42,233 nucleotides of DNA, from the NCBI GenBank assembly GCA_009773415.1, contig WSNO01000024.1, forward strand, positions 1 to 42,233, written 5' to 3'. The notes beneath the pieces are model-generated. The model ran no database searches. It saw only the letters and a program-made list of their open reading frames with translations, and was not told the DNA's origin. A program made the translations under genes and the position numbers. This document shows positions 6,146 to 31,477 of this stretch, one piece after another (the first letter of the stretch is position 1; each line of letters opens with the position of its first letter). The DNA is from Nitrospirota bacterium (GTDB taxonomy: Bacteria > Nitrospirota > Thermodesulfovibrionia > Thermodesulfovibrionales > Dissulfurispiraceae).

Positions 6146-6149
6146 GAGC

Positions 6150-6184
6150 AAAAAGAGAGCAGCCTCCACAACCGGAGGCTGCTC
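6150..6184 (-). terminator. Intrinsic terminator between receptor and binding-protein genes
   Basis: On the minus strand an 11-bp perfect stem (GAGCAGCCTCC with GGAGGCTGCTC, 6157-6184, 6-base loop) is followed by TCTTTTT. It starts 8 bases after the receptor stop, inside the operon. Partial termination here would give more receptor than inner-membrane importer. Confidence 0.85.
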
Positions 6185-6192
6185 AAACCCTC

Positions 6193-8217: not shown

Positions 8218-8399
8218 GTTTCCTCCTGTCTGTTTTCGTTCGCGTCCGGCAGAATCAAGACGTAAACGGTGCTGATCGCATTGTTCTCAAAGAGGCGGCA
8301 TATCTTCCTGCCGGTGCGACCGCCGCCCTGCCCGTTCCTCTGGTGTTTTGATCTCATGATTCCACGTTTCGCTTTTTCTTTTCATCACCTCATTCTGTT

Positions 8400-9085: not shown

Positions 9086-9207
9086 AAAAAAAACCACGCC
9101 GACACGCACCTTCATGGTGCAGAGCCTTCATGGCTTTCATTTCGTAACGTCAGACACGCTACTGCCGCTTCATGCGGCTGCCCATACTTGCTGTACAGGT
9201 TTCTATG
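9086..9207 (-). ncRNA. Leader RNA copy B: structured attenuator in front of tonB
   Basis: The untranslated leader folds into several hairpins. P1 is 7 bp (CCUGUAC-AGCAA-GUAUGGG, 9181-9199). P2 is GCCGC-AUGAA-GCGGC (9164-9178), followed by AGUAG. P3 is 7 bp (9144-9162). Then come AGCC-AUGAA-GGCU and GCACC-AUGAA-GGUGC. The arm AAAGCCAUG can instead pair with CGUGGUUUU to form a terminator (9086-9137) ending in eight T. The small AGCC/GGCU hairpin and the terminator exclude each other, as in a riboswitch or protein-controlled attenuator. Copies C and D share the architecture. I cannot match it to a known riboswitch class. Confidence 0.75.
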
Positions 9208-9243: not shown

Positions 9244-9265
9244 TTCCAGAAAATGAATAGGCGCA

Positions 9266-13662: not shown

Positions 13663-15501
13663 CTACGATTCGGTTGAGCTTTCTTTCATGTTGATTACCA
13701 GTTCGCTAAGCATGTCTGCTTTGAGGTCATCAATGGTGTAGTGGTCGGCTTCCAGTTGCGCAGCTATCGCTGCGGCACGGTCGGTTGTGGTGAAGCGTCC
13801 TTTTTCTTCGGTGTCCACGACAATGATATCAATGCCGCGCTGCTCACGCAGCAGTGCGGAAATGCGCGCTATTTCCTCTTCAGGCGTCATGCCGCTTATC
13901 GCCTGATTTGCACGTCCGTCGGTTATCAGCACGATCAGAAAACGAGTCTCCGGTCGCTTTCTTCCGACCCTTTCCAGCAGGCGGTGCGCTTCCAGCAGGC
14001 CTGCTCCAAGAGGAGTTTTTCCTCCGACCGGAATGTCCCGCAGCCGCCTCGCCGCGTGTTCCACGCTTGCGGTCGGTTGCAGCACGACCTCTGCATGGTC
14101 CTTGCGGAAAACAATCATCGATACGAGATCGCGTTTCTGGTAGCAGTCGATCAGCAGCGACTGAATCGCGCCCTTGGCAGCCACCATGCGTTTCTGTGCA
14201 CCCATAGAGCCTGATCCATCAACAACAAAAAGGGCGAGATGCCCCATCTTGCGCTCTTTCCGCTTATAGCGGAAATCGTCCTCGTCTATCACCACAACAT
14301 TCGTGCGATTGCGAACTCCCTGATACGGCGCGGCAGCGCGCAACGTCGCATCAATGGCTATGGAGCGATTCTGTCTGAATACGCTTTTTACATACCTGCC
14401 TCCACGGTTGCGGGCCCGGGTGCGTGTCCGGCGGCCCGATGCCGCCCGCTCGATGCGGTCTTTCCTGAAAAAGAGCCGCTTCATGCGGAACGGCTGTCCG
14501 ACCGAGAAAACTTCCTCGCTCTGCGGAAGCAGCTCCTGAGGCACCGGCGGGGCAGCGATCTGCTGATTGTCGTCTTTGTCCTGAGGCTGTTCTTCCTGCT
14601 GATCCTGATTCGTATCAGGCGGCGACTGATTCCGGTCAGGCTCATCGGGAGCTTCCTGTTGCTCCGGCGGATGAGGTGGCGGCGGCGGCCGAAGTTCGCG
14701 CCGCCGGTGCATCAGAACAAGCGGAGCGACGAGATCGATCTCTTCACGGGATACCTCTCTTTTGCCGTGCATTGCTGCCTGAGCACGTGCAGCTGATAGC
14801 ATGCTTATGTCCGCACGATGACCGGCCACATTATATGTCAGACAGATGTCGGCAATATATTCGAGCAGCCGCTCACGAACAGAAACATGCGGCAGTATTT
14901 CCCGTGCCTTCAGAATCGAATCAGAAAGAGTTCGGTCGTCATCAGCATCGCCATGGCCGCATGATGATTTGATAACGGCGATGCGGGCAGCAGACTCATC
15001 AATATGCTCAAACCCTGCGCACATGCCGAAACGGTCGAGCAGATGCGCCGATACCTCTCCTTCACCCGGATACATTGTCGCAACAAGAATAAACGATGCA
15101 GGGTGGCGGATGCTCAATCCTTCGCGCTCGACCAGATTTTCGCCCCTGCTGTGCACTTCAAGTACGAGAGAGACAATCTCGGGAGAGAGCAGGTTCACAT
15201 CGTCGATGAAGAGCACGCCGCCGTGCGCCCGCGAAAGGATCCCATGTTGAAATTCGCGTTTGCCGGAGCGGAGTGTTTCTTCAATTGCTATGGAACCGAG
15301 CAGGGCATCTTCGGTAACATTCAGCGGCAGCTCAACAAACGGCGTTGCAGCCGGAAGTATCGAACAGAGCGCACGGGCGAGCGTCGATTTGCCGCACCCT
15401 TTTTCGCCGACAAACAGAACACCGCCGCATCGAGGATCGACCGCATTGAGTACCAGCGCTCGCTTTGCCTCATCATGCCCGACAAACGACGAACAGCTCA
15501 T
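13663..15501 (-). CDS. Chelatase AAA+/VWA subunit, ChlD/BchD type
   Basis: 612 residues. An N-terminal AAA+ module has Walker [10 protein letters not shown] near residue 33. A proline- and acid-rich linker follows (about 270-325, five consecutive prolines, many Gln/Asp). The C-terminal von Willebrand A domain has the MIDAS motif DGSGSMG near 428. In Mg- and Co-chelatases this subunit forms the hexameric motor with the I subunit and activates the large catalytic subunit. Its start overlaps chlI in an ATGA junction. The AAA+ part looks largely intact, whereas many D subunits have degenerate ATPase motifs. Confidence 0.92.
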
Positions 15502-16508
15502 ACCTGCGCGAGTGCTGCGGTCACCTTGTCGCGCTCTGCGCCGGCATCTTCAAACGGCAGCCGTTTCAAACGATGGCGGAGCGCAAGCCAGGAGGCATCC
15601 CTGATTTCCTCTGAACCAATTGCGGAAAGCCCCCTGTATGCGGCCATGGCGCGGGCGGCCTTCATCATCACAATGTCGGCGCGGTGTCCGTCGAGGCTGA
15701 GCGCCGAGGTGATCGTTACGATCTTATCGAGCACCGCATCATCCACCGGAATTGCACCGACCGACTCCCGGGCTGCGATAATCATAGCAGCAAGCATTTC
15801 CTGGTTGGCGGCCCATGCAGCATGAAATGCCTCGGGATCAGCATCGAATAATAATTTCCGCTTGAGTATCTCGACCCTCTGTTTTTTATCCCGCAGGGAA
15901 GTCACCGATACGCAGAGGCCGAAACGATCCAGCAGCTGAGGTCGCAGGTCGCCCTCTTCAGGGTTCATGGTGCCGACCAGCATAAAGCGCGCCGGATGCG
16001 TGAATGAGATGCCTTCCCGCTCGACGGTGTTCACTCCCATGGCGGCGGAATCAAGCAGGAGATCCACGATATGATCCTCCAGCAGGTTGACTTCATCCAC
16101 ATACAGAAAGTTTCTGTTCGCATCGGCAAGAATTCCGGGCTCGAATCGTTTTTCGCCGTGGCGGATTGCATGTTCTATGTCAAGTGTGCCGACCAGACGA
16201 TCTTCTGTAACGCCCAGCGGCAGTTCGACCATGCGCATCTTGCGTGTTTCACGGTGAAGATGCCCTTGCTGCGCCAGCATATCCCGGCAGTCGGAACAGA
16301 GGGTGGCGTCCGCATCGCAGGTAAACGGACAATCCCTGACCGCTTCCAGTTCGGGCAGCAGTTCCGCAAGCGCCCGGACAGCGGTGCTCTTGCCGGTCCC
16401 CTTTTCACCCATGATAAGCAGTCCGCCGATCGACGGATCAATCACATTCAGGATGAGCGCCGTCTTCATCTCCTCCTGATTCACCAAAGCGGTAAACGGG
16501 AATATCAT
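15498..16508 (-). CDS. Chelatase AAA+ ATPase subunit, ChlI/BchI type
   Basis: 336 residues from ATG at 16508, chosen because GGAGG lies 7 bases upstream and the ATG overlaps the cobN stop (ATGA). Walker [10 protein letters not shown] (about 32-40), Walker [10 protein letters not shown] (near 136) and sensor motifs ([19 protein letters not shown]) are present. A Cys-rich insert ([15 protein letters not shown], about 59-73) is typical of this subunit and may bind a metal. It hydrolyses ATP to drive metal insertion by the large subunit. Together with the neighbours it makes a complete three-part chelatase. Confidence 0.94.
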
Positions 16509-19500
16509 CCCAGAACCTCCTCCATGCGTTTCTTCCACCCTTCCACTTCATCTTTCGATATCATGTCGATTGCGCCGCCCTGAAACTCGCCCTTGATATC
16601 GCCCATGCGCTCTTCAATCCAGCCTTCGATCTCGACATACAGCTCACGCAGCGCCTCGCGCACATCGGGAGACGGATTCCAGAGATTGCGCTCGACCGCC
16701 TCGATAAGGCGTCGGGCGATCTCCTCCAGCGCCCACGGGTTGTTCTCCTGAAAGAACTTCCGGTTCTCCTCGTTCATCATGAATGTTCTCGTAATGTCAT
16801 CAAAGACCGAGTCGTCGACCGCATGTGCGGTCGCCTGCCATCCATATACACGTCCCACGCGTTTGCTGATCTCACCGGCGCCCTTGTAGCCGTGCTCCTT
16901 CATGCCATCTATCCACTTCGGGTTCAGAATCTTCCCGCGCGTTATCCGGCGCATCTCTTCCGTAAGTGTGCGGACCGAAACACGGTCCTGCTCCCGCGTA
17001 TCGCCGTAGTAATTTTTGATCTCCCTGCCGGAAAGCACGCGGGCGGCGTTAATCATGCCGCCGTGAGTGCCGAAGTAGCCGCAGCAGCCGGTCAGATCGT
17101 ACTCGTCGGTCACGGTCTTGTTGAAAGTGACATCGACCGTCCTCAGATTTTCCTGCAGGCTCTTGTGCGCAGGCTCACCGAAAACATTCTTGCCGTATGC
17201 GTATCCGTTCCAGTAAAGAAAGACATCGGAAAGATCTTTTTCGGTCTTCCACGCCGAGGCATAGATTGCAAGCTGCGTGCCTGCCTGATAGGTTCCCGGC
17301 ATGCTCGAAAAGAGACGGTACGTTGCCGCCCGCACTGCTTCGGCGTCATCCGGCGATTCACCGCTAAGGCGCTCAAGGGTATGCTGACGGATATAGTTCT
17401 GATCAAGCGGCTCGTCAAGCATTGCCACCCGCTGCACCACCTCATCCACTACATCAATGGCAGAAGGGAAATTGTCGCGCGTGATTCCCGAAACCCTTAT
17501 GGTGACATCGATACGCGGTCGGCCAAGCTCGGCGAGCGGGATCACCTCGAAGCCTTTCAGTCGTCCGTTGCCGCTCCAGAGCGGCCTGGCGCCGAGCAGG
17601 TACATCATCTGCGCCATACCTTCGCCATCGGACCACATGATATCGGTACACTGCCAGTAAAAAGCTATCGTCTCGGGGTAGCGACCTTCTTCCTCACTAT
17701 ATTTGTCGAGGGTTTTCTGTGCAAGCATCTTGCCGATTTCCCAGGCCGATGGTGTCGGGATGCGGTGCGGGTCGAGCGAATAGAAGTTGCGCCCGGTCGG
17801 AAGGATGTCCGGTCTGCCGCGGGTAATCAGTCCGGACGGGCCGGGTTCAATATAGCCTCCGTCAAAGCCGTTCAAAAGCGCTCCGACCTCATCGGTGCGC
17901 TCCACATTTATAACAATGTTCTCAATATCGTGTTCGAGCTTCGAAAGATACTCCAGAAGATCGGTCTGTATCGGATAGCATGCTTCAATCGCTGCCCGGA
18001 GTTTGCGCTTGTTGATGATGATGTCCCGGCAGATGCGGTGGCACTCGTCATCAGCGCGTTCCCTCAGGCGATCCTCGCTCAATTTTTCGTGCTGCGCGAC
18101 AAGTCTGGCTATCAGCCAGCGAAGCGAACCTTCCGACATGTCGAACCGTACTATCGCGTGCACGAAATCGCCGAGCTTTTCATCCTGCGGGAGTCTGCCA
18201 AATGTATGCATGCCCTTGGGAATATGCATCTCCTTCAGCACCTGCAGCGCATCATGCAGATCGCCGACATGATCAATGAAATTGTCGTGCGTAAGCTCTT
18301 TGCCGTCAAGCAGGTTCAGCGTTTTGGCCTGATCCATAATCATGTGCTGGATCGTGTGGGCACGCGCCGGCTCGACTGTGCGATAGCGTTCATATTCATC
18401 AATGAGTTTTGCCGCCTGATCAAGATCGCCGTACAGCTCGCCCTTGACCATCACCGTCTGCATGTGATCGACCAGAACCGCCTTGCTCCGGCGCTTCGCA
18501 ATGGTGCCCTCCGGCGGATTGTCCGCATTGTATATATAGAGATGCGGCATCGAGTCAAGACAAATGTCAGGAAGACATGAAGATGAGAGACCGGTCGCCT
18601 TGCCGGGCAGGAATTCCACGTTTCCGTGCGTGCCGACATGAATGACGGCATCGACCCCGAAATCACGCGAAAGCCATTTGTACGTTGCAATGTATTGGTG
18701 CGGTGGAGGCACGTCGGGATCATGCAGGATCTTGCATACCTGTCCGTCGCAGCGCGCGCCGGCGCAGCCGCGTTTCGGCTGGGCGCAGACAACCGCATCG
18801 CCATACTGCACTCCGGTAACGAGGAGAGTTCCATCATGCACCATCGCAGCAGGAATGCCGTCCTTCTCCTCGCCCGGAGGATTGCCCCACGCTTCGGATA
18901 TGCGTATTCTGGTTGCTTCAGGAAGTTCGTTAAACCAAAGTTCATAGCGCTCTTTCGGAATCCTGGCGAGAACGCCCCCTTTGCTCACTATTTCATCGGT
19001 TGTTGTCCAGCGGAACTCCGAAATCGCCTTGCGATTCATGATCGTGTCAATAAGCTCCTTGCCGTCGGCAGGAGGTTCCACTGCGTATCCTTCCTGTTGA
19101 AGGCGCTTCAGGATATCAGCAACACTCTCAAGGGTATCAAGATGCGCGCCGCCGCCAACCGATGCCTCGACCGATACGCAGGGATTATTGTGCAGGATAA
19201 ACGCTACCCGCTTTCCGCGGTTCGGCTTTCCGCGCAGCGCAAGCCACTGCTGAACGCGGTCGGCAAGGCAGGAAATGCGGTCCGGAATCGACTCATAGGC
19301 CTCCTGTTCAGGGTCGGAAATGCCCCGCGAAGCCCCGATGACCATCGGTTCGATTACGCCTTCAAACTCCGGCATCGCAATGCTCCATGCCACCTGCTGC
19401 CCCAGACCGTTCGGGTCATGGAGCCATTGCTCGGCATTCTTGTAGTACGATATGACCGGACAGAACAACGGAACGTTCAGCTGCTTCATTATTGAAACAC

Positions 19501-20296
19501 CAGACGGTGCATCCGAAGCCTTTATCTCGCCGCGGGAGTTGCCGAGGAAAAAGCTTGTCAGCTTGATGACGCCGCCCACCAGAGACTTTCCGTCACGAAC
19601 CAGAAAGCGTTCGACCACTTCGACACCGCTCAGATTGCCGATGCCAGGATCCTTGAGCGGATACAAAAAAACCGGGATTACGCCAAGCCCGCGAGCCTCC
19701 AGTGCGTCAGTCAGAGATTGTTCGATCTCGATATTTCTGGTTGCCCAGGCCGATCGAGAGTAGAGCATTCCGACATACAGTACAGGCGGGTTTGGCAGAT
19801 ACGCCGAATACCACGCAAGAAATGATTCGGTATCACTGAATACCGCTTCATGTCCTGGATGAAAGATCCCCTGCCACGGTAGCTCCTGAGGTTCCGAAAA
19901 AACAACAGACCGGTCAAACAGCTGGTGCACGAGGAATCTCATCATGTTGCGGATGTTGTTCTGTCCGTTATAGAGAAGATAGCGATACGCGGTTGCAATC
20001 AGTTCCGGCGCAACTGTCGAAAGAACCCAGAATGATGGGTCGCTGCCGACGACCACAACGGGGATGCGCCCGTGGAGTTCATGAAGCTCGGGCTCTATCT
20101 CATCCCAGAAGGTGTCGTTCGTCCGGTAGAGCAGAATGCAGTCAGCTTCGCGCAGCCTCGCTTTCGCCTCGTCTATCAATGCAGGGGTCGTGGTGAGCTG
20201 TTTGGTCGAAAAAGAGATGAGGGACAGGCGCAGTTCGTCCGCAGCCTCTTTCACCAGCGGCAGATAATTGGACCACATAATGGTGAATATCTTCAT
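16505..20296 (-). CDS. cobN: CobN/BchH-family large chelatase subunit
   Basis: 1263 residues, full length for CobN (PF02514). Family motifs include [14 protein letters not shown] (near 552), [20 protein letters not shown] (near 590) and [19 protein letters not shown] (near 810). In the aerobic B12 route this subunit binds the corrin ring and cobalt; homologues also handle Mg or, in haem-uptake (hmuS-type) loci, remove the metal from haem. ChlI/ChlD-type ATPases follow, but no other B12 synthesis gene is present. Its operon is dominated by uptake genes. Whether it inserts cobalt, nickel or iron, or dechelates, cannot be read from sequence. AAGGAG precedes the ATG. Confidence 0.9.
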
Positions 20297-20311
20297 GTTC
20301 CACTCCTTCGG

Positions 20312-21058
20312 CTATTCACTGTAGTTCCTGATAAGACGCGAACCCACGATAAAGAAGACCACTGCATAGAACACGAGAGCAAGCATGGAAACACAACCCT
20401 CTCCGTCCAGTAACGGTTTGCGGATGACGATATTGGTATGGGTCAGCGGAAAAACATATACGATATATTTCAGCATGTCCGGCATCCGGTCAACCGGAAA
20501 AAACGTTCCGCTGAAAAACGCCATTGGCAGAATAAAGAAATTGTTATAGGTTGAAGTATCTTCATGCGATTTCGTCACCATGCCGACGATGACGCCGAGA
20601 CAGGCAAAAAGAAAGCAGTTCAGCAGGAGTGTCACGACGAACAGCGGAGAAACCGAAAAATCACGTGACATGACGAATCCGACAATCAGGATCAGACATG
20701 ATGCAAAGAGCCCCTTTACCATTCCTGCCAGCACTTCACCAATCATGATTGACGATGAACTAATCGGCGCCTGCACAAAGACCTGGAATGTCTTGAAGTA
20801 GAGACGGTTCAGGTTGAGTGCGCTCGCAACCCAGGTGTATGAGTTGTTCATGGAACTCATGGCAACGAGTCCGGGCAGCAGATAGGTAAGATAATCGCCA
20901 CCGCCGATCTGGACATTTCTGCCAAGGCCAAGCCCGAATGTTACCAAATAGATAATCGGCACCACCATCGCCGAGAAGAGATAGCCGAGCTTCATCAGCT
21001 TCCGCCGGAACATCATCATCTCGCGGAGAAATACCGGGTACCATCCGCCCATTCTCAT
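20312..21058 (-). CDS. ABC-2 type exporter permease
   Basis: 248 residues from ATG at 21058, which overlaps the stop of the ATPase upstream (ATGA). The frame stays open to 21127, but that part overlaps the ATPase. Six membrane segments and the ABC-2 fold (PF01061) are recognisable, with FRRKLMKLGYLFSAMVVP near the first helix and FFSGTFFPVDRMPDMLKYI before the last two. This family usually exports drugs, polysaccharides, Nod factors or haem-like compounds. Its position directly before cobN, inside an uptake operon, is unexpected. Confidence 0.87.
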   Translation of the reverse strand: MRMGGWYPVFLREMMMFRRKLMKLGYLFSAMVVPIIYLVTFGLGLGRNVQIGGGDYLTYLLPGLVAMSSMNNSYTWVASALNLNRLYFKTFQVFVQAPISSSSIMIGEVLAGMVKGLFASCLILIVGFVMSRDFSVSPLFVVTLLLNCFLFACLGVIVGMVTKSHEDTSTYNNFFILPMAFFSGTFFPVDRMPDMLKYIVYVFPLTHTNIVIRKPLLDGEGCVSMLALVFYAVVFFIVGSRLIRNYSE

Positions 21059-21888
21059 TCTATTCTGTCCCCGGTAATCTTGATGAATACATCTTCCAGA
21101 TTCGACTTTCGTATTGTGACACAGCACTCGCGGCCCTGGGCGGCAGCGCGTGCTTCATCGAGGTTCCTGCAGATCTGCTGCATCAGTTTCCCCTCACCGT
21201 TGACATGCTCAACCGCATACTCGCCGACCGTCGCCAGAAGATTCGCAGGCGTGTCAAGGGCGATAAGAGAACCTTTCGCCATGATGCCCACCCTATCGCA
21301 GAGCGCCTCGGCTTCTTCAATATAGTGCGTCGTCAAAACAACCGTACGACCGTCAATCCGCGTCTTGCGAATCACCTCCCACATCTGCCGGCGTATCTGC
21401 GGATCTAGGCCTATTGACGGTTCGTCTAGGAAAAGCACAGTCGGATTCGTGAGCAATGCCCGCGCAATCAGCAGGCGGCGCTGCATGCCCCCTGAAAATT
21501 TGTTGATCAGGCTGTCGCGCCTGTCCCAGAGATCCACCAGATGAAGGCACTCCTGTATTTTCTGCCGGTAGTCTGACAAGCCATGAAGCATGCTGTAAAT
21601 CTGGAGGTTCTCATAGGCAGTCAGTTCGCGATCAAGATTATTCTCCTGCGGGACCACGCTGATACGCCGTTTAATTTCCTGTCGATCGGCGGCAATCGAA
21701 AGCCCGTCAATTGATGCGCTTCCCGATGTCGGCTGAGCAATGAGCGTCAGCATCTTGATGGTTGTTGTCTTTCCTGCCCCATTCGGCCCCAGCAGACCGA
21801 AGACTTCCCCTCGGGCGATAGACAGCGATATCTTATGAACGGCCCGGATGGTTCCATATGTCTTCGAAAGGCTGTTCAGCTGTATCAT
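21055..21888 (-). CDS. ABC-2 type exporter ATPase (CcmA/DrrA/NodI type)
   Basis: 277 residues with Walker A GPNGAGKTT (34-42), signature FSGGMQR (131-137), Walker B VLFLDEP (151-157) and the DPQIRRQMW segment typical of the drug-exporter branch. It forms an exporter with the downstream permease and is separate from the importer ATPase just upstream, whose stop it overlaps by 4 bases. Possible cargo includes a metallophore, a tetrapyrrole or an excess metal complex; none is indicated by sequence. Confidence 0.92.
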   Translation of the reverse strand: MIQLNSLSKTYGTIRAVHKISLSIARGEVFGLLGPNGAGKTTTIKMLTLIAQPTSGSASIDGLSIAADRQEIKRRISVVPQENNLDRELTAYENLQIYSMLHGLSDYRQKIQECLHLVDLWDRRDSLINKFSGGMQRRLLIARALLTNPTVLFLDEPSIGLDPQIRRQMWEVIRKTRIDGRTVVLTTHYIEEAEALCDRVGIMAKGSLIALDTPANLLATVGEYAVEHVNGEGKLMQQICRNLDEARAAAQGRECCVTIRKSNLEDVFIKITGDRIE

Positions 21889-22682
21889 TGCAACGCCTCG
21901 CTGACAGGATGCGTTATGTTTGGACAGATAAAACCGACGCCGTTATTGATCACGACGGAAACATCGATGCCGTACATGGCGTGCAGATTCCGGGCAGTGA
22001 TTACCGCTTCCGGACTTCCCGAGTCCAGTATCCGCCCCTCGCTGACCAGGATAACCTTGTGAGAAAAGAGCATGGCAAGATTCGGGTCATGCAGCGTCAT
22101 CAGTGCCGTCAACTTCTTTTCGATGACGATCGAGCGCACCTTCTCAAGCACCAGCAGCTGATTGCGAAAATCAAGATGTGACGTCGGCTCGTCAAGAATC
22201 AGAACCGGAGAATGCTGCGCAAGCGCACGGGCAATCAGCACGAGTTGCCGTTCACCGCCGCTGATCTTTGTATAGGGCCGCTCGGCAAGATGTGCAATGC
22301 CGACGCTTTCAATTGCATCACGGGCGGCAGTCAGGTCGCTCTCCGAAGGAGCCGAAAACATCGCCACATGACTTGCTCTGCCCATAAGCACAATATCGAA
22401 AACAGAATAGGGAAACGGCGGCTCGTGGTCCTGCGGCACAACGGCAATTAGCCGTGCGCGGTTATGAGCAGAAAGAGCGGTCAACTCCCGACCGCCGAAG
22501 CGCACGCTTCCCTGTTGAACAGTCCAGAGGCCCGCAATGCACCGGAAAATGGTTGTCTTGCCCGAACCGTTCGGGCCGAGTATCGTCGTAATTGCGCCGG
22601 CGTCAGCTTCAAACGTCACCCGATGAATTACGTCGGCGGCTGCCCGTGCATGACGGAATGTAAGATTCTCTATCGAAAGCAT
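21885..22682 (-). CDS. ABC importer ATPase, BtuD/FecE type (module 2)
   Basis: 265 residues with Walker A GPNGSGKTT (36-44), Q-loop VVPQDHE (81-87), signature ISGGERQ (140-146), Walker B LILDEP (161-166) and switch His198. It starts on the base after the permease stop codon and overlaps the next gene by 4 bases, so it belongs to one long operon. The C-terminal extension (about residues 225-265, GIDVSVVINNGVGFICPN) is seen in several cobalamin-type importers. Together with the adjacent BtuC- and BtuF-type proteins it makes a complete inner-membrane importer. Confidence 0.93.
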   Translation of the reverse strand: MLSIENLTFRHARAAADVIHRVTFEADAGAITTILGPNGSGKTTIFRCIAGLWTVQQGSVRFGGRELTALSAHNRARLIAVVPQDHEPPFPYSVFDIVLMGRASHVAMFSAPSESDLTAARDAIESVGIAHLAERPYTKISGGERQLVLIARALAQHSPVLILDEPTSHLDFRNQLLVLEKVRSIVIEKKLTALMTLHDPNLAMLFSHKVILVSEGRILDSGSPEAVITARNLHAMYGIDVSVVINNGVGFICPNITHPVSEALQ

Positions 22683-23690
22683 CTATTTCCCCCAGCTCTC
22701 CTTGCCGCCCTTTTTCATGAGATAGACAAAAAACGGCGCACCGGTAATTGCCGTGATGATTCCCACCGGAATGTCGTAGTTTGTCAGATTGCGGGCAATG
22801 GTGTCAGCCACAATCATGAATGCCGCCCCGCCGGCCATGCTGAGGGGAAGAAGGCGCCGGTGGTCGGGCCCTACAATCATCCTGAGCAAATGTGGCACCA
22901 TCAAACCGACCCAGCCGATAATGCCGCTGACCGACACCGCAATGCTGACAATCAGCGTCGCAGCCGCAACAAAAATGAGCCGGTCGCGTTTCACATTAAT
23001 GCCAAGCGCCCGCGCCTCATCTTCACCCATGCTCATTACATTGAGCCGCCAGCGCATAAGAACAATCGGCACCAGTCCTGCGGCCATGCCGCCGGCTGCG
23101 ATGCTCACCAGCCTCCAGTCAGCCAGAGAGAAGCTGCCCATGAGCCAGAAGACGATATTCTGGAGCTTCATCGGTTCGACCAGAAATTTTACGATCGATA
23201 CCATCGCCATAAAGAACGCCGACATGATAACGCCCGACAGAATCAGCGGAAGCCGCGATACCTCGCCCTCTGTTTTTGCCATAGAGTATGCAAGAAAGAC
23301 CGCGAGCACGCCGAACACAAATGCCATGATCTGCACAGGAAGATGCGGCAGAAACCCGACAGAGAGCGCACATCCGAGCGCAGCTCCCGCCGATATGCCG
23401 AGAATATAGGGGTCAACCAGCGGATTGCGGAAAATGCCCTGAAACGTCACCCCCGAGACTGAAAGGGCAATGCCGACGAGTCCGGCAAGCAGTACGCGGG
23501 GCAGTCGTATGTCCAGAATAATCGCCTGTTCCGGCGAATCCATCGAAACGCCGGACAGCGAAAGCGCACCGGCCAGTGTTTTCAGCACCGCCATAGGCGG
23601 CAGATTATATGCGCCGATAAAGAGCGCCGCCCATGCCGCGATAAACGGGGCCGCCGTAATTGCCGCCACGGTATATGGCTTAGCCTGCAA
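22683..23690 (-). CDS. ABC importer permease, BtuC/FecCD family (module 2)
   Basis: 335 residues, about ten membrane helices. Family marks: RLPRVLLAGLVGIALSVSG (63-81), GIFRNPLVDPYILGISAGAALG (85-106), ARALGIN in the coupling loop near 230 and GLMVPHLLRM near 268. The start overlaps the binding-protein gene by 11 bases. It is paralogous to the module 1 permease, to which it is similar along its whole length. Confidence 0.92.
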   Translation of the reverse strand: MQAKPYTVAAITAAPFIAAWAALFIGAYNLPPMAVLKTLAGALSLSGVSMDSPEQAIILDIRLPRVLLAGLVGIALSVSGVTFQGIFRNPLVDPYILGISAGAALGCALSVGFLPHLPVQIMAFVFGVLAVFLAYSMAKTEGEVSRLPLILSGVIMSAFFMAMVSIVKFLVEPMKLQNIVFWLMGSFSLADWRLVSIAAGGMAAGLVPIVLMRWRLNVMSMGEDEARALGINVKRDRLIFVAAATLIVSIAVSVSGIIGWVGLMVPHLLRMIVGPDHRRLLPLSMAGGAAFMIVADTIARNLTNYDIPVGIITAITGAPFFVYLMKKGGKESWGK

Positions 23691-24672
23691 ATCCCTTTAC
23701 CTTGCTGAACGGAACACCGAACACTTTTCGATAAAATACATCTGCCTCTTTCTCGATATTGACATCCCGGAACCGCTCCGGATAGGTGCGGGCTGCCATC
23801 CAGAGCACAACCGGAGCAAGCCGCGGAGACCAGGTAGACCACTCCGGAGCCTTAAATACATGTTTGTCTCTCACTGCCTTCACAAATCGCCACTGCGGGT
23901 TGTTCATAATCTCCTGAGCAGTATATTTTGCGTGCCCCCAGATGAAGATGATGTCCGGATTCCATGCGATAATCTGCTCCATCGAGACATCGATATTTCT
24001 TTGCTGGAATTCAGATGCGGGATTAATCCCGCCGATCATAGTGATGACATCGTTGTTCACGCCGATTGCGCATGCAACCGAAGTCGGTCGCGAACCGACC
24101 CACAGTACTTTCCGGCGCTGAGCGTCCGGAATATCTTTCACCCGCTTTTTCACTGTTTCAAATACGCGATCCATTTCGGCGATGACAGAGCGCATCTTTT
24201 TTTCCCGCCCAAACACTTTGCCGTGAAACAACATGTCATCATAAAGCTCCTGCAGGCTTTCGGGGTAGATGGTAAAAACCTTCAGCCCCTTCTCTTCCAT
24301 GTACCGGACATTTTCGGGTCTCGACGTCCAGGTAATGACCAGATCGGGCTTCAGCTTCTTGAGCGCCTCGATATTGATGTCGGTGCCGCTGCCGGCTGAT
24401 GCAATGATCCTTTCGATATCAGGCTTCGTCGCTTTCATCAGATCGTTCTGATAGGCAAATCTGCCGATACCGACCACCCGGTCCCAGATGCCGAGCGCAG
24501 GAATCAGCTCATACGTCTGGAAAAAAACCGCGCGTGTCACCGGCGTCTGCACACTTATCTGGCGTCCCATCTTGTCCCTGGCGGTGACGGTTTCTGCGCA
24601 AACAGAAACCGTCAGGCCGAGAATAAGGATAACAACGACTACAAGAAATCTGCCGATGATACGCTCCTTCAC
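23680..24672 (-). CDS. Periplasmic binding protein, BtuF type (module 2)
   Basis: 330 residues. The GTG start at 24672 overlaps the receptor stop (GTGA). A clear signal peptide (hydrophobic 8-22, cleavage after SVCA) precedes the cluster-A binding domain: IPALGIWDRVVGIGRFAYQNDLM, NIEALKKLKPDLVITW, IIAWNPDIIFIWGHAKYTAQ, FKAPEWSTWSPRLAP. The same motifs occur in the riboswitch-controlled protein at 12.2 kb, suggesting the same or a similar ligand. The binding protein of module 1 lacks them. Confidence 0.9.
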   Translation of the reverse strand: MKERIIGRFLVVVVILILGLTVSVCAETVTARDKMGRQISVQTPVTRAVFFQTYELIPALGIWDRVVGIGRFAYQNDLMKATKPDIERIIASAGSGTDINIEALKKLKPDLVITWTSRPENVRYMEEKGLKVFTIYPESLQELYDDMLFHGKVFGREKKMRSVIAEMDRVFETVKKRVKDIPDAQRRKVLWVGSRPTSVACAIGVNNDVITMIGGINPASEFQQRNIDVSMEQIIAWNPDIIFIWGHAKYTAQEIMNNPQWRFVKAVRDKHVFKAPEWSTWSPRLAPVVLWMAARTYPERFRDVNIEKEADVFYRKVFGVPFSKVKGFAG

Positions 24673-26951
24673 AACTTGATTTTCAGCTCGGCAAACCAGG
24701 TCCGGCCAGGCGCCGGATAGTATCCGAAGTACTGTTTATCAAGAATATTGTCCACCGAGAGCGAGAGCGCAGAATGCCTGGTAACCTGATACGATACCTT
24801 TGCGTCAGCAACGAAATAGGGGTCGTAGGAAGTAAATACGTTATTGGCAATATCATTATTGGTGTCGTTTGCATACCGCTTGCTGACATAGCGACCCGTC
24901 AGTGAACCGCTGACCGGCCCATGCACAGCCGTTGCGCCTGCGTTGAACATATGCTGCGGCACCTGCGTCAGACGCTTCCCAACCGAGTTCGGATTCGCTT
25001 CGTTTTCTTTAACCTTTGCGTCGGTGTAGGTATAATTCGAAAAGAGCGTTAGCCATTTGCCGAACTTCTGCTCAACTTCGAGTTCGACTCCCTTACTTTC
25101 TGCCTTGCCGGCATTGACGAATTCGCGCAGTGTGGAGGTCACCGTCTTTCGGTAGATGAGGTCTTCCATGTAATTCTCGAAATAACCAGCTTTGATCTTC
25201 GCCCCCTGCCAGAGGCCCTGCTCGATGCCGACATCCCACGACTTCACCGTCTCGGGCTTCAAATTCGGGTTTGCGGCCCACGTGGTCCCTGTTGACGAAA
25301 CCCAGGTTCGGTACAGATCATACACCGACGGTGATCTGAACGCTTTTCCGGCCGAAGTCCGCAGGGTTGTGGCGCTGAATGGCTTATAGACGAACGAAAG
25401 CTTGGGACTGAACGAGGATGCGTCACGAGAACCGTAATATTTTGGATACCCTGCCTTGGGAAGCCCCGTTGCCGGATTTCTGTCCACTATATACCCATCG
25501 AATGTCTCCCAGAGGTCATACCTTCCGCCTATGTATGCAGTAAGATTGTTCAAGATGGCGATCTCCGCTTCGGCAAAGGCTGAATAAGTATGGTCTTTTC
25601 CTTCAGCCTTGTATTTTTCGATCGTTTTCGTGTCTTCGTCTTTATAGCTTGTCAGAAACGTCTCGGTGATGTCCGCCGAACCGTGTCTGTATGCGCCTCC
25701 AAAAGTGAGGAGGTGCTTTTCAAAAAGCGGTACGGCAAACTGAAGATCAGCATTGAAGACCTGCATCGGGCTTTCGCTCAGATACCCCGGACCACCGCTC
25801 AACGTTGCAACCTGAGCTGTCGTGCAGCCGGTAGTCGTGCCCCGGCAGACGGTCGAATACCAGTTTTTCACCCGGTCGTTGAGCGACAGCGACAGCTTCG
25901 TCTTCACCTTCGCTATTTCGGTCTCGAGCCCTGCGGAATAAATATTCTGCTCGCTTCCGCCCATCGCCCCAAGGTATGTTCCTTGCGCAACCGAGCCATA
26001 GTTATAGACCGGCTGCCCGGTTGCAGCATTCTTCAAATAGGTGTGAGGCTCGTCGTAATTGTACTCGTACCTGCCGCGATGGAATGATAATGAGAGCTTC
26101 GTCGTCTTCGTGAACGCATACTCGGTTTTCAGCGTGATGTGGTCGTCCCACCACCGGTTGTCACCCTTGTCGCCGATGAGAAATCGCGCATTACCTTGAT
26201 TGTTAGTCGTCGGCGTCCAGCCGATTACGTTTGACGGAGGCGCGGTGCTCTGTATATTGAGGTCGGTCGGATATCCGTTCGTCGCCCGATAGCCGTAACT
26301 GCCGTAAACGCTGAGCTTGTCGAAGAATTTGTTTCCGTAGGAAAGTGATATCGTCCGCAGGTCATCCGGTGCCGTGCCGCGAACCCAGCCTGATCCGTAG
26401 CCGGATTTGAACATGAACTCCTGCTTTTCCGGCATCCGGGTTATAACCTGCACGACACCGCTCATGGCAGAACCGCCATAAAGGCTCGAAAACGGACCTC
26501 GCACAACTTCAATTCGCTCAACATCGTCCAGGCTGTAATACGAGTAATTCACGCCTCCCGTATAGCCGTCATTGAGAGGGGCACCGTCGAGTAGAAAAAG
26601 CACCCTCTTGTCGTCAGGAACACCCCGTATACTGATATTCGAGGTTGTTTCAAGAAAACTTTTCCCTGTTTTGTTGAAAACCCCCGGAAGAAGATTCAGC
26701 GACTGATCCAGAGACTTCACATTCCTGCTGTCAAGGTTTTCTCTGGTAATAACCGAAAAACTGCCCGGCGCTGTTTCAATGCTTTTTTCGGTACGTGTCG
26801 TGGTTACAATGACTTCGTCGAGTTTTGCCTCGGGAACCTTCACATCTTTCAATTCTTTTTGTTCATGCGGTGACTGTGCTTCTGCTGCATATGCAGCAAC
26901 TCCGAACAGAATTATCACTGCGGCGCTGATTACTGCCCATGTCCTTCTCAC
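24669..26951 (-). CDS. TonB-dependent outer-membrane receptor (module 2)
   Basis: 760 residues from GTG at 26951, with GGAGGAAGG upstream. A signal peptide (to about residue 23) precedes a TonB box (DEVIVTTTRTEKS, 46-58) and a standard plug (SVITRENLDSRNVKSL, VLFLLDGAPLNDGY, RIEVVRGPFSSLYGGSAMSG). The barrel ends at a C-terminal hydrophobic strand (AELKIKL). The plug resembles those of BtuB/CirA-type receptors. It would import the chelate that the downstream BtuF/C/D-type importer carries inward. Confidence 0.93.
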   Translation of the reverse strand: MRRTWAVISAAVIILFGVAAYAAEAQSPHEQKELKDVKVPEAKLDEVIVTTTRTEKSIETAPGSFSVITRENLDSRNVKSLDQSLNLLPGVFNKTGKSFLETTSNISIRGVPDDKRVLFLLDGAPLNDGYTGGVNYSYYSLDDVERIEVVRGPFSSLYGGSAMSGVVQVITRMPEKQEFMFKSGYGSGWVRGTAPDDLRTISLSYGNKFFDKLSVYGSYGYRATNGYPTDLNIQSTAPPSNVIGWTPTTNNQGNARFLIGDKGDNRWWDDHITLKTEYAFTKTTKLSLSFHRGRYEYNYDEPHTYLKNAATGQPVYNYGSVAQGTYLGAMGGSEQNIYSAGLETEIAKVKTKLSLSLNDRVKNWYSTVCRGTTTGCTTAQVATLSGGPGYLSESPMQVFNADLQFAVPLFEKHLLTFGGAYRHGSADITETFLTSYKDEDTKTIEKYKAEGKDHTYSAFAEAEIAILNNLTAYIGGRYDLWETFDGYIVDRNPATGLPKAGYPKYYGSRDASSFSPKLSFVYKPFSATTLRTSAGKAFRSPSVYDLYRTWVSSTGTTWAANPNLKPETVKSWDVGIEQGLWQGAKIKAGYFENYMEDLIYRKTVTSTLREFVNAGKAESKGVELEVEQKFGKWLTLFSNYTYTDAKVKENEANPNSVGKRLTQVPQHMFNAGATAVHGPVSGSLTGRYVSKRYANDTNNDIANNVFTSYDPYFVADAKVSYQVTRHSALSLSVDNILDKQYFGYYPAPGRTWFAELKIKL

Positions 26952-27072
26952 TGCCCTTCCTCCTTTTTCCGCACCGCCGCCATCTGGTACAATGATGACG
27001 GAAACGGTGCATCGTGCATTGCTTCCGGGACGGGGCAGGCACCCTCGCCAAAGGCTTCGCCTGCCTTCGTCC

Positions 27073-27708
27073 TCAATTGGCCGATTTCAGCTCAAACCTT
27101 ACCGGCAGTATCGCCCGCGACATAACCGCAATGCCGTCACGCTTTGCCGGACGATACGTGGACTTCTTCACTGCCACCAGCGCGGCGTCCGTGAAGCCGA
27201 AGCCGGCGCCTTCGACAACTTCAGTGCTGAGAAGCCTTCCGCGCTCGTCAATAGTCAGCCGAAGAACGACCTTTCCTTCCTTGTTCATGCGCCTTGCCAT
27301 AAAAGGATACTCAGGTATTTCACGGTGCAGAAAGTTCGGTCCCATGACGCCGCCAAAGGGCATATAATCAACAGGTTCGCGATTGACTGAAGCGGAAGAA
27401 CCTGCTGATGCCGGAGGTCGCTGAAATGTTTCCGCCAGCTTTGGAGGTGCAACTGGAGCGGCACTCTCGGAATGCGCCGGAGTCAGCGGTTGCTCGACAG
27501 TCCGGGGCTGCGCAACCGGCCTTGTCCGCTCTTTCTTAACCGGTTGAGGCTTCATAAATTCGCTTGGAGCCTCCTCCTTAACCATCCCGAAATCGATCTC
27601 TATCGGACGCGACACGGTCACCGCCGACACGCTGAACGCCCAGACCAAGCTGATGACAAACATATGCGCAAGAAAGGAAATTTGAAATCCCCGGACTTGC
27701 TCTTTCAT
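27073..27708 (-). CDS. tonB: TonB energy-transducing protein (module 2)
   Basis: 211 residues: membrane anchor (about 8-30), Pro-rich periplasmic spacer (KPQPVKKERTRPVAQPRT and following) and C-terminal TonB domain (IPEYPFMARRMNKEGKVVLR, then GAGFGFTDAALVAVKKS). It overlaps exbD by 4 bases and precedes the receptor by 121 bases that contain no other gene. The C-terminal domain is recognisably related to that of the module 1 TonB, while the spacers differ. Confidence 0.92.
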   Translation of the reverse strand: MKEQVRGFQISFLAHMFVISLVWAFSVSAVTVSRPIEIDFGMVKEEAPSEFMKPQPVKKERTRPVAQPRTVEQPLTPAHSESAAPVAPPKLAETFQRPPASAGSSASVNREPVDYMPFGGVMGPNFLHREIPEYPFMARRMNKEGKVVLRLTIDERGRLLSTEVVEGAGFGFTDAALVAVKKSTYRPAKRDGIAVMSRAILPVRFELKSAN

Positions 27709-28085
27709 CGCCGCTCCACGGTCTGAAGGCTGACTTTCCTGAATTCCATCCGCTTCACAAGGTCAACCACATCAACAAACCCCTGCAACGCAACCTCCCG
27801 ATCAGCCCTGATAAGAACCGGCACCTCCCGGCTGTCCTTGCTGAGCATTGCAGACAGTTCTTCAAGCGATACCCGCTTTCCATCGGCATATATCTGCCCG
27901 GCCTTGTCTATCTCGACTGTCCGCGTTCTGAGGGTGTCTTCGTGTTTTTTGGCGACCGCCGGCAGTTCGACCGGAATAACACCGGTTGCGATAAATGTTG
28001 AGGTCGTCAGCACGATGGTCAAAAGCACCAGCATGATGTCCACAAACGGGATGACGTTGATATAGTCAAACTCTTGTTCTTGCAT
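27705..28085 (-). CDS. exbD: ExbD proton-channel component
   Basis: 126 residues, one membrane helix (about 13-35) and a periplasmic domain. The essential membrane aspartate is Asp16 (VIPFVDIMLVLL). ExbD with ExbB uses proton flow to energise TonB. Its start overlaps the end of exbB by 20 bases. The order exbB-exbD-tonB-receptor is standard. Confidence 0.94.
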   Translation of the reverse strand: MQEQEFDYINVIPFVDIMLVLLTIVLTTSTFIATGVIPVELPAVAKKHEDTLRTRTVEIDKAGQIYADGKRVSLEELSAMLSKDSREVPVLIRADREVALQGFVDVVDLVKRMEFRKVSLQTVERR

Positions 28086-28500
28086 TCCTGATTTCCCACT
28101 GCATGATGAGCACTCTGACCTGACGCAGAAGCATGTTGTAACACGCTATCGCCGGTATCGCCACCATAAGGCCGACTGCTGTGGCTTTCAGGGCGAGGGC
28201 AAGGCCAAGCATGATCTTGGTGCTGTCCATGAAGCCGGACTGTCCCATGGAATAAAACGTCAACATGATTCCGAAGACGGTACCGAGCAGCCCTATATAC
28301 GGCGCGTTGCTGCCGATGGTAGCTATCAGATGCAGCTTCTTCGTAAGCTCGAGTTCAAGCGACTTCTTTTCGGCAAAATCCTCGATTCGTATGCGCTTCA
28401 TCACAAGATGACGCTCAACGGCTATCGCTACGGCAACAACACTGAGCACCAGCAGCAAGCCGATAACGCCGTATTCAACAACCTCTTTCAGCCAGTCCAT
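28066..28500 (-). CDS. exbB: ExbB/TolQ-family proton channel protein
   Basis: 144 residues, a short ExbB with three membrane helices (about 8-26, 60-82, 95-118). The core motif SNAPYIGLLGTVFGIMLTF (63-81) and GLALALKATAVGLMVAIPAI (95-115) are those of the MotA/TolQ/ExbB family (PF01618). The short cytoplasmic loop between helices 1 and 2 is common in exbB of anaerobes. Because only one exbBD pair is present, it probably serves both TonB proteins. Confidence 0.93.
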   Translation of the reverse strand: MDWLKEVVEYGVIGLLLVLSVVAVAIAVERHLVMKRIRIEDFAEKKSLELELTKKLHLIATIGSNAPYIGLLGTVFGIMLTFYSMGQSGFMDSTKIMLGLALALKATAVGLMVAIPAIACYNMLLRQVRVLIMQWEIRNARTRV

Positions 28501-28633: not shown

Positions 28634-29341
28634 TTATTCATTCTCGCTGTCTTTCCACCAATGAAGAGAGACATTGACATTCTCGTCCAGATACCAATGC
28701 CCCTGCGATATGCGGAGACGCGATGCGAAGGCATGCTCATCGAAATGTCTGGCGCCGGTCTGAGACGCAAACCGCCAATGCTCAAATGCTTCAGCAAGCG
28801 AATGGTAGACATGCGGGCTCTGCATTTCATACTCATTGCTCCAGCACAGAGCATAGCCACCAGTGTCGGCACAGGTCTGGAGCACATCGCCACCCGTTTC
28901 GGTTACCACAAAAATATTGCGGGGTCTCATGGCAAGAACCCGTCGGAACGCATCTATCATGCCTTCCTCACAGACATGCAGTGAATTGCAGGCGATAACA
29001 AGATCGCACCGGCTGTAGTCGCAAGAAGAAATATATGACCATGATCGCTCATCTACCCGAACATGACCTATCCCACGACGCCAGGCTTCCCTGAAAAAAA
29101 GACGACGCATTGCCGACGACGGTTCAAGAGCCGTCACCTCGCACCCAATCGCTGCAAGGGGCAGAGAAAGAGTGCCGTTTCCGGCTCCGATGTCCAGAAC
29201 CCGCCAGTGCGGCTGTATATGCTTCAGGAGATGATGAAGAATCGGCTCATGATAGTTGCCGTGTTCCACCCAGAGCCGATACCAGCGGGCGTTCTGCTCC
29301 CAGTAGTCAAGTGATGCTATGGCACGCCCATCAATGACCAT
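28634..29341 (-). CDS. Class I SAM-dependent methyltransferase
   Basis: 235 residues. The SAM-binding motif I VLDIGAGNGTLSLPLA lies at 48-63, followed by an acidic residue at the end of strand 2 (VTALEPSS) and the motif DLVIACNSLHVC after strand 4. The C-terminal part is rich in His and Trp (HWRF, RHFDEHAF, GHWYLDE, LHWWKD). The ATG follows GGAGG at 7-base spacing, directly behind leader C. Methylation of a metallophore, corrinoid or tetrapyrrole would suit the neighbourhood, but the substrate is unknown. A strong terminator right after it may make it a separately expressed gene. Confidence 0.82.
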   Translation of the reverse strand: MVIDGRAIASLDYWEQNARWYRLWVEHGNYHEPILHHLLKHIQPHWRVLDIGAGNGTLSLPLAAIGCEVTALEPSSAMRRLFFREAWRRGIGHVRVDERSWSYISSCDYSRCDLVIACNSLHVCEEGMIDAFRRVLAMRPRNIFVVTETGGDVLQTCADTGGYALCWSNEYEMQSPHVYHSLAEAFEHWRFASQTGARHFDEHAFASRLRISQGHWYLDENVNVSLHWWKDSENE

Positions 29342-29360: not shown

Positions 29361-29479
29361 AAAAAGCCACGAAGACCGCACCTTCTGGCGCTTCAGCCTT
29401 CGTGGCTTTCATTCATTCTGTCAATTATGCAACAACTGCCGCTTCGGCGGCACTCTGAACTCCCTGTTCAGATGCTAAT
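29361..29479 (-). ncRNA. Leader RNA copy C: structured attenuator before the methyltransferase
   Basis: Same architecture as copies B and D. P1 is UCUGAAC-AGGGA-GUUCAGA (29455-29473); P2 is GCCGC-CGAA-GCGGC followed by AGU; then AUGAAAGCC, the small hairpins AGCC-ACGAA-GGCU and GCGCC-AGAA-GGUGC. The terminator stem (GCCACGAAG with CTTCGTGGC, 29366-29374 and 29398-29406, extended by A-T pairs) ends in TTTTTT just before the ribosome site. P1 differs from copy B at paired positions on both sides while keeping pairing. Copy D is almost identical over 100 bases. Confidence 0.78.
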
Positions 29480-29707: not shown

Positions 29708-29992
29708 CTACCCCATCAGCACGGGGCCGGAACGATATACTGCACGCAAAGAAATAAGTTCAGCTTCCATTCTGTTATTAAGTATGTCATTGGTCAGAAT
29801 GTCATCTATTGTTTTTTTCACTGTTTCCTGATATTCCTCCGTCATCATGAAATAGTGAAAAAACAATCCCTCAAATCCATCCATTCGCCGCAGCTCATCA
29901 TTATGAGAACTGAGAATCTCTTCTATATCCAGATATTCGCGCAGAGAGCCGAACCAAAGATTTCTGTTGCCAAGACTGTATACAATCCACAT
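29708..29992 (-). CDS. Uncharacterised 94-residue protein
   Basis: The ATG at 29992 is chosen because GGAGG lies 5 bases upstream; the frame is open to 30016. The protein (MWIVYSLGNRNLWFGSLREYLDIEE and onward) has no signal peptide or membrane helix. It is rich in Asp/Glu and aromatic residues and mostly helical in appearance after residue 20. I recognise no family. It follows cooT by 58 bases and is ended by a terminator, so it is the last gene of the leader-D operon and may share a nickel- or metal-related role. Confidence 0.7.
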   Translation of the reverse strand: MWIVYSLGNRNLWFGSLREYLDIEEILSSHNDELRRMDGFEGLFFHYFMMTEEYQETVKKTIDDILTNDILNNRMEAELISLRAVYRSGPVLMG

Positions 29993-30050: not shown

Positions 30051-30287
30051 TCACGAGGACCTCCCTAATGAAAAGCCGGCACTGTCGGAAGGTCTTGTCT
30101 GTCGCCGCTTCAAAATTATGCGGTGATTCAGCAGTGATACCTCCAGAATTTCTCCGTCAAAGACACGCTCCTCGCCATATGTGTTTTTCAGATGCAGCTC
30201 TTCTCCATCGCATCTCAACTCATCAATGTCCGCAAGATAGAGGACTTCACCTGACTGTTCCCGGATGAAGGCACTCGGTTTGCACAT
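30051..30287 (-). CDS. cooT: CooT-family nickel-binding protein
   Basis: 78 residues. The ATG at 30287 is preferred over the one at 30290 because AGGAGG sits at good spacing and it places cysteine at position 2 (MCKPSAFI). In the characterised CooT this N-terminal Cys2 binds Ni(II) in the dimer. The rest has the family's small beta-barrel pattern (GEVLYLADIDELRCDGEELHLKN, then GEERVFDGEILEV). CooT helps deliver nickel to CO dehydrogenase in Rhodospirillum. No CO dehydrogenase is in this window. It follows hldD by 15 bases. Confidence 0.8.
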   Translation of the reverse strand: MCKPSAFIREQSGEVLYLADIDELRCDGEELHLKNTYGEERVFDGEILEVSLLNHRIILKRRQTRPSDSAGFSLGRSS

Positions 30288-30302
30288 CATCCCCTCCTGT
30301 GG

Positions 30303-31298
30303 TCACTCTCCCAGTCTTTGGCCGGTTTTGAGATAATTTGTCACATAGTCGCAGACAGCGTCGTGCAGCGACATGGCAGTCCCGCTGTATCCTGACAGCT
30401 GAAACTTCGCCGTTGCCGCACAGGTATGATACTGGTAATTCCTCCGTATCCCCGGTGGCATGTCGATATACTCAATCCGGCATGGAACATCAAGGGCTCC
30501 GAATATCGACTGAGCAAGGCAATTCCATGTAGTAGCGGTGCCGCTGCCGATATTAAAAATGCCGTTTGCGGCAGCATTATCGAGAATATGAAGTGTCATA
30601 TCCACAGCGTCTTTCACATAGATAAAGTCTCGAACCTGCTCGCCGTCTGCGTACCCCGCCCGATGCGACCGGAAGAGCTTCAGTTTGCTGCTCTCTCTGA
30701 TCTGCCCGTATGCCTTTAGAACGAGCGAACTCATATCTCCCTTGTGGTATTCGTTCGGTCCGAAAACATTGAAATATTTCAGTCCGGCTATTCCGGCCAG
30801 CAGGCCACTACGCCATGCCCAGAGGTCGAACAGATGCTTTGAATAGCCATACACATTTAACGGGCGCAGCGAACCGAGAAGCGATTCATCATCGCTGAAC
30901 CCCTGGCTACCGTTTCCATACGTTGCCGCGCTCGATGCATAGACAAAGCGGACGGAGCGATCCGCCGCGAACAGAGCAAGCTGTTTTGTATATGCAAAAT
31001 TGTTCATCATAAGAAAGGACGCATCCAGCTCGGTGGTTGATGAACATGCGCCCAGGTGCAGAATCGCTTCGATCCTTTTTAGAAGGCTGGTCACCAGCGC
31101 TGATCGTTTTCTGTTCGCTACCGCTTCCAGAAAATCGTCTTTTTCGACGTAATCGGTAAATCTGAGCGGCGTGAGGTTTTTCCACTTCTCGTTTGTTCCA
31201 AGATGATCGACAACAAGAATATCGTCCCTGCCGAGCTGGTTAAGCCGCCAGATAACCGCGCTACCGATAAACCCTGCCCCTCCGGTGATAATAATCAT
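30303..31298 (-). CDS. hldD: ADP-L-glycero-D-manno-heptose 6-epimerase
   Basis: 331 residues from ATG at 31298 (GGGAG five bases upstream; the open frame to 31310 overlaps the leader). NAD-binding motif TGGAGFIGS (5-13), catalytic SSAATYG and YGYSK (Tyr/Lys pair), and HldD-specific segments (GACSSTTE, KYFNVFGPNEYHKGDMSS, VRDFIYVKDAVD). It epimerises the heptose nucleotide used for the LPS inner core, a Gram-negative marker. Being first in an operon with cooT behind a metal-uptake-type leader is unusual. A related sugar-nucleotide epimerase is possible but less likely. Confidence 0.87.
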   Translation of the reverse strand: MIIITGGAGFIGSAVIWRLNQLGRDDILVVDHLGTNEKWKNLTPLRFTDYVEKDDFLEAVANRKRSALVTSLLKRIEAILHLGACSSTTELDASFLMMNNFAYTKQLALFAADRSVRFVYASSAATYGNGSQGFSDDESLLGSLRPLNVYGYSKHLFDLWAWRSGLLAGIAGLKYFNVFGPNEYHKGDMSSLVLKAYGQIRESSKLKLFRSHRAGYADGEQVRDFIYVKDAVDMTLHILDNAAANGIFNIGSGTATTWNCLAQSIFGALDVPCRIEYIDMPPGIRRNYQYHTCAATAKFQLSGYSGTAMSLHDAVCDYVTNYLKTGQRLGE

Positions 31299-31310
31299 GC
31301 ATTCTCCCAC

Positions 31311-31441
31311 AAAAAAAGAAAAGCCACGAAGACCGCACCTTCTGGCGCTTCAGCCTTCGTGGCTTTCATTCATTCTGTCAATTAATTATGCAACTACTGC
31401 CGCTTCGGCGGCGCTCTGAACTCCCTGTTCAGATACACTGA
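31311..31441 (-). ncRNA. Leader RNA copy D: structured attenuator before hldD-cooT
   Basis: P1 UCUGAAC-AGGGA-GUUCAGA (31415-31433); P2 GCCGC-CGAA-GCGGC (31399-31412) then AGUAG; AUGAAAGCC; small hairpins AGCC-ACGAA-GGCU and GCGCC-AGAA-GGUGC. The terminator stem is GCCACGAAG with CTTCGTGGC (31323-31331 and 31355-31363), followed by TTTTCTTTTTTT. Relative to copy C it carries an extra AATT in the linker and a few substitutions. The anti-terminator AGCC/GGCU pair and the terminator share the same bases, so only one can form. Confidence 0.78.
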
Positions 31442-31447
31442 TTTTCT

Positions 31448-31477
31448 ACTATATTGAAGTACGAGGTCAGAAGTCAA
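31448..31477 (-). promoter_or_regulatory. Promoter for leader D
   Basis: TTGACT (31472-31477), an 18-base spacer and TATAGT (31448-31453) on the minus strand, with the start predicted near 31441 at the 5' edge of hairpin P1. Between here and the pdxA promoter (31478-31677) I see no convincing gene. Confidence 0.75.

Follow-up and report, generated by a model that had tools for sequence, protein, structure and literature searches.

A hairpin-and-terminator leader preceding nickel-uptake genes across Nitrospirota, with a probable role in place of NikR

The window analysed here, the whole stretch of 42,233 nucleotides, harbours on its minus strand a gene group composed of hldD, cooT and a 94-residue orphan (ORF94), preceded by a promoter and a leader, designated leader D. 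Promoter, leader and genes are in agreement with the original prediction of a shared leader ahead of these three genes. The following elements were identified:

31448..31477, minus strand: promoter of leader D, TTGACT, 18-nt spacer, TATAGT, recognised from the sequence, 14 nt upstream of P1
31318..31434, minus strand: leader D, the whole putative attenuator of 117 nt, with intrinsic terminator
31415..31433, minus strand: P1, 7-bp hairpin with loop AGGGA; four of the seven pairs changed on both sides among five leaders
31399..31412, minus strand: P2, hairpin GCCGC-CGAA-GCGGC
31353..31363, minus strand: P3a, GCC-ACGAA-GGC, predicted to be exclusive with the terminator stem
31335..31348, minus strand: P3b, GCGCC-AGAA-GGTGC, terminator tip and predicted second antiterminator hairpin
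31311..31366, minus strand: intrinsic terminator with U-run, abutting the hldD ribosome-binding site
30303..31298, minus strand: hldD, ADP-glyceromanno-heptose 6-epimerase, 331 aa (TIGR02197)
30051..30287, minus strand: cooT, nickel-binding CooT family (PF10133; PDB 6fan)
29708..29992, minus strand: ORF94, 94-aa orphan that closes the gene group, beyond the range 30051-31477

The hldD product passed the equivalog cut-off of TIGR02197 (368.8 bits against 274.6, E 2e-110), and the ATG is taken as its start codon in preference to the GTG at 31310. The cooT product matched its Pfam family with E 1.3e-12 (48.2 bits, cut-off 27), retains the Met-Cys N-terminus and thereby Cys2, and has CooT in the PDB as its nearest structure (E 7e-7); by family membership it is a predicted nickel binder. 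A Pfam search gave no match for ORF94, and a fold assignment was discarded, since the predicted model had low confidence (pLDDT 69) and matched nothing in the PDB at E < 0.001. Homologues of ORF94 were also found behind the leader in genomes G015, G108 and G093. The sister species G015 (JAAYUK010000142.1, a Nitrospiraceae MAG) keeps the order leader, hldD, cooT, ORF94, leader, methyltransferase, exbB, exbD and tonB.

Leaders A, B and C are also present in the window, and the promoter geometry of leader D is repeated at each of them. They were scored with R1, a covariance model built from five leaders, one row of which was reduced by two loop bases for alignment register:

29361..29473, minus strand: leader C, 131.8 bits with R1
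28634..29341, minus strand: methyltransferase (MT), directly behind leader C
13663..28500, minus strand: exbB, exbD, tonB, TonB receptor, binding protein, FecCD, ABC proteins, CobN and two chelatase ATPases
9088..9200, minus strand: leader B, preceding tonB, 75.6 bits with R1
2881..9065, minus strand: tonB, TonB receptor, binding protein, FecCD, ABC and a 162-aa protein, behind leader B
1608..1720, minus strand: leader A, a broken copy of leader B together with a tonB remnant, adjoining an IS630 transposase

Leaders D and C are 93% identical in a BLAST match, and leaders A/B are more distant from D (72-76 bits with R1). The same-strand genes at 13663..28500 behind leader C would form one transcript. 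Leaders A and B belong to a duplication with 98% identity over 202 nt. The duplicated leader and tonB fragment (window 1448-1779 against 8694-9259), next to the IS630 transposase, represents a relic leader. The window further contains a cobalamin riboswitch at 13310-13490 (minus strand), ahead of a periplasmic binding protein at 12214-13287 that is followed by NrdD/NrdG. Two Sulf_transp (YeeE-type) half-genes are located at 33812-34860 (minus strand), adjoined by DUF134 and a Nitro_FeMo-Co protein. At the left edge, where a hydrogenase remnant had been proposed as a sign of nickel demand, the sequence holds an open fragment of 36 aa that matched nothing in Pfam.

Among the five leaders, P1 maintains its seven pairs and five-base loop despite sequence change, and the fold comprising P1, P2 and the terminator of leader D beats 200 of 200 dinucleotide shuffles (z -5.4). 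A leader typically contains between two and four hairpins whose loop is either ANGAA, usually AUGAA or ACGAA, or NGAA, and some of these hairpins fall beyond the span of the covariance models. Pentaloop hairpins ending in GAA were counted in 127/221 cases against 1.5 in shuffles, and the closing pair is C-G in 102 of the 127. All five pairs of P3b changed on both sides among 43 homologues. The 5' strand of the terminator, GCCAYGAAGGY, doubles as the small hairpin GCC-AYGAA-GGY, which corresponds to P3a. The P3a pairs are intact in 43/43 sequences, including the 5 to 9 in which A11, G12 or G13 has lost its partner in the terminator stem, but this set of 43 (A5) was picked by a pattern demanding GAAGG, which weakens the case for conservation of the P3a pairs. 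Similarly, the models were built from the same leaders, so the conservation of the terminator 5' strand and of the loop is partly ascertainment. In transcripts truncated ahead of the 3' arm, P3a was predicted in 41/43, and both tandem hairpins in 40/43. The full terminator has a predicted median of -27 kcal/mol against -10 kcal/mol for the tandem hairpins, which makes termination the likely default. Two exclusive folds, tandem hairpins and terminator, are thereby predicted, and attenuation is the likely mechanism. A leader peptide was considered and rejected, as the short frames of leaders A/B and D are missing by eye from leaders C, E and F.

Of the 176 genomes searched within the order, R1 matched 61. 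A second covariance model, R2, built from 43 terminator cores, matched 114 of 395 Nitrospirota genomes. Among 50 outgroup genomes of other phyla, Candidatus Desulfaltia bathyphila (Desulfobacterota) gave the sole clear R2 match, the rest reaching at most 33 bits. The covariation score of R2 was 0.402 against 0.216 for shuffled alignments, and fell to 0.12 or less once the structure was slid. Neither the leaders in the window (E up to 5) nor 20 related leader loci (E up to 1) matched Rfam, including its NiCo and cobalamin riboswitches, and a search of the open-access literature gave no account of the leader RNA. Leader D belongs to a previously undescribed family of putative switches, made of hairpins and a terminator, that precede nickel-uptake genes across Nitrospirota.

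The genes behind the leaders were tabulated for 63 usable leaders, defined at the order level by at least 500 bp of DNA downstream. A regulon-type gene was found within 3 kb downstream in 60 of the 63, a number better taken as a description of the regulon than as a test, as the labels were assigned by BLAST against reference proteins partly taken from leader loci; its independent part is that the gene set is full of metal-uptake genes. Thus the leader does not stand mainly before genes with no metal link, and one leader regulon responding to nickel or cobalt, as originally predicted, is supported by this tally together with the ECF permeases and the NikR distribution described below. The tally includes CbiM/NikM (23), TonB receptor (23), methyltransferase (15), DUF4198 (14), P66 (14), TonB/ExbBD (13), the PF13557 protein (6), CooT (2) and ORF94 (2), and no recognised regulon gene was present behind 3/63. 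At the class and phylum level, leaders are located ahead of CbiM-type ECF permeases and of a His-rich permease that resembles UreH, although the assignment stayed below threshold. In Ca. Desulfaltia, leaders are found ahead of an operon with the order DUF4198-NikM-NikL-CbiQ-ABC, of further uptake genes and of a gene for a hydrogenase maturation protease. The suggestion that the leader be sought near hydrogenase and nickel transport genes is therefore borne out by this protease and by the ECF nickel/cobalt permeases.

The genome from which the window derives (G000) possesses an extra leader on contig C18, before a lone TonB receptor, and another before a PF13557 outer membrane protein that is truncated where contig C44 stops. 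The remaining part of such a protein stands at the start of contig C45, followed by NikM, PDGLE/NikN, CbiQ and ABC-P66, an ABC ATPase whose open frame gave a P66 match. The C44 leader probably heads a NikMNQO locus split over C44/C45, provided that the two contigs join as their ends suggest. A SAM methyltransferase of roughly 235 aa is often the first gene behind the leader (L122, L123, L129, L131 and others), and is perhaps a nickel-chelator enzyme. P66 occurs as a small standalone protein or as the C-terminal domain of a NikO-like ATPase. It contains invariant W, H and Y residues (W-x-x-H-N-x-x-H; L149-L208, L252-L260) and belongs to no Pfam family. P66 was rejected as the regulator, being a component of nik operons that also occurs in NikR-positive genomes.

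The original prediction had also joined a heptose epimerase, CooT and TonB-dependent uptake in one regulon. The gene order in the window and in G015 fits this, but the link to hldD is genus-specific: within the family, hldD passes the TIGR02197 cut-off in G000 and G015 only, hldD behind the leader is confined to their genus, and none of the other tabulated leaders precedes it. The best hldD match, with 64%, is that of Desulfaltia, located 0.3 kb from a leader but on its upstream side. In this organism, locus L249 (G437:C51) shows several leader-like matches in 6 kb, close to the hldD homologue and to a P66 gene that is itself equipped with a leader-like terminator.

Of 175 genomes of the order, 36 encode the nickel regulator NikR, and the 61 genomes with the leader are all without it (p 2.5e-8). 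In the phylum, 190 of 395 genomes encode NikR, and leader match and NikR occur together in 4 genomes against 54.8 expected, three of these being weak matches. Restricted to strong leader matches, NikR was present in one genome of 95 (G309, a clear case) against 45.7 expected (p 1e-31). The genomes are related, therefore these p-values overstate independence and serve as a guide only. In genera g88 and g95 some species possess the leader and others NikR. In each of seven NikR-positive loci compared, the nik operon begins with nikR, and NikM of type M1 is 67-72% identical between a leader-led operon and NikR-led ones, against 45-52% for the type of the genome studied here. The exchange between leader and NikR appears to have happened more than once. 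Since the leader precedes nickel-uptake genes in species lacking NikR, it probably takes over the role of NikR as an RNA. The near-exclusion also favours nickel over cobalt, and nickel is the likely signal, judging from this comparison.

Leader, conservation, covariation, predicted exclusive folds, metal-uptake context and near-exclusion of NikR can be read from the sequences. The reading that we prefer, with a probability of about two in three, is that the leader controls nickel acquisition by transcription attenuation, through a factor reading its loops, in place of NikR. Transcription would begin at the standard promoter just upstream of P1, and the nascent RNA would form several small hairpins sharing the C-G-closed loop (A)NGAA. 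When these hairpins are not stabilised, the long terminator would capture the P3a strand of the second-to-last hairpin and stop transcription before hldD, termination presumably being the repressed state. Under scarce nickel, the factor reading the repeated loops would hold P3a/P3b and the polymerase would pass, turning on nickel uptake by the TonB system, the receptors and NikMNQO, as well as the accessory genes cooT and ORF94, and hldD in its own genus. The leader would in this way stand in for NikR. The broader view of a new nickel-sensing RNA regulator that repeatedly replaced NikR, either as a pentaloop-hairpin Ni2+ riboswitch or as the target of a nickel-dependent antiterminator protein, has somewhat better than even odds.

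Regarding the reader, a protein is somewhat more likely than direct metal binding, at about 60:40. Direct binding of Ni2+ or Co2+ by the RNA, with the repeated hairpins as the aptamer of a new riboswitch class and metal favouring the terminator, is the main alternative, although a less likely one. It is consistent with the metal-uptake cargo throughout, the strong covariation, the precedent of Ni/Co riboswitches in the literature, and the absence of NikR together with that of any regulator gene in a search of the leader loci. Nevertheless, the hairpins are simple, with no junction or compact pocket, and Rfam gave no match. Moreover, hairpin number, spacing and stems vary and the loop alone is fixed, which is typical of recognition by a protein.

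The signal could instead be cobalt or a corrinoid, which we regard as unlikely. The uptake operons contain CobN, chelatase ATPases and BtuF-like binding proteins, with CobN behind leaders in the window and at L149, L150, L163 and L223; in addition, a cobalamin riboswitch lies within the window and the NikM/CbiM models carry a cobalt label. However, the leader is nearly exclusive with a nickel sensor that heads the equivalent ECF operon in relatives, NikL and the hydrogenase maturation protease are found behind the Desulfaltia leaders, and CooT belongs to the regulon.

CooT had been regarded as the best clue to the signal, a weak argument, since 158 of the 175 genomes in the order (90%) encode it and it is rare behind the leaders. 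It is improbable that CooT acts in trans on the leader, as a dimer that binds nickel, recognises the loops and controls the operon encoding it. CooT is indeed a small dimeric nickel-binding protein (PMC6006190), common in the order and a regulon member in the genome studied here, G015, G090 and G153. Nonetheless, it is absent in all three genomes of genus g61, although the leader of G108 is the best-scoring one beyond the genus studied here, and the leader-bearing drafts G093, G163, G166 and G147 (80-98% complete) also lack it, while many CooT-positive genomes have no leader match. A universal RNA-binding role was rejected on these grounds, and CooT is probably cargo rather than regulator, because g61 keeps the leader. 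The genome studied here possesses a second CooT at L117 (G000:C40), adjoining DUF3842, and in G153 a DUF3842-CooT pair lies under its own leader (L144, L173). Finally, ordinary terminators copied along with genes and devoid of regulatory meaning are a very unlikely explanation: terminators are common and leaders A/B are a recent duplication, but the geometry of promoter, hairpins and terminator ahead of start codons is constant, the loops are conserved while the stems change, and the leaders precede different nickel genes across families and nearly exclude NikR.

NikR is missing from many nickel-dependent anaerobes. The leader bears on the control of nickel uptake in such organisms and marks a likely nickel regulon, to which it ties the 94-aa orphan, the P66 domain, the methyltransferase and DUF4198.

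The NiCo (czcD) riboswitch, known for efflux genes, shares with the leader a structured RNA and a link to Ni/Co, but the leader has no junction, does not match Rfam and is located ahead of uptake genes. The two-hairpin antiterminators of the ANTAR type (EutV, NasR) possess hexaloops with A1 and G4 (PMC7496416). Similar to them, the leader has tandem hairpins with a C:G closing pair, a loop with A first and a conserved G, and a second hairpin overlapping an exclusive intrinsic terminator, and it recurs at several operons. In contrast, its loops are ANGAA pentaloops with G third or NGAA tetraloops, not hexaloops with G fourth, and up to four hairpins are present. A search for the ANTAR domain PF03861 gave no match in the genome studied here and none in the control genomes either, which makes it a weak test. 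CooT of Rhodospirillum rubrum belongs to CODH operons (PMC6006190); the protein encoded here has the family PF10133 and Cys2 in common with it, but stands behind the leader with hldD and the orphan, and has no CODH gene next to it. NikR regulates nikMNQO (PMC2667541), the same kind of target operon as that of the leader, but is a DNA-binding protein, and among genomes with a strong leader match only G309 has it. With the leader, attenuation by RNA and repression by a DNA-binding protein appear to have changed places, in some cases between species of a single genus.
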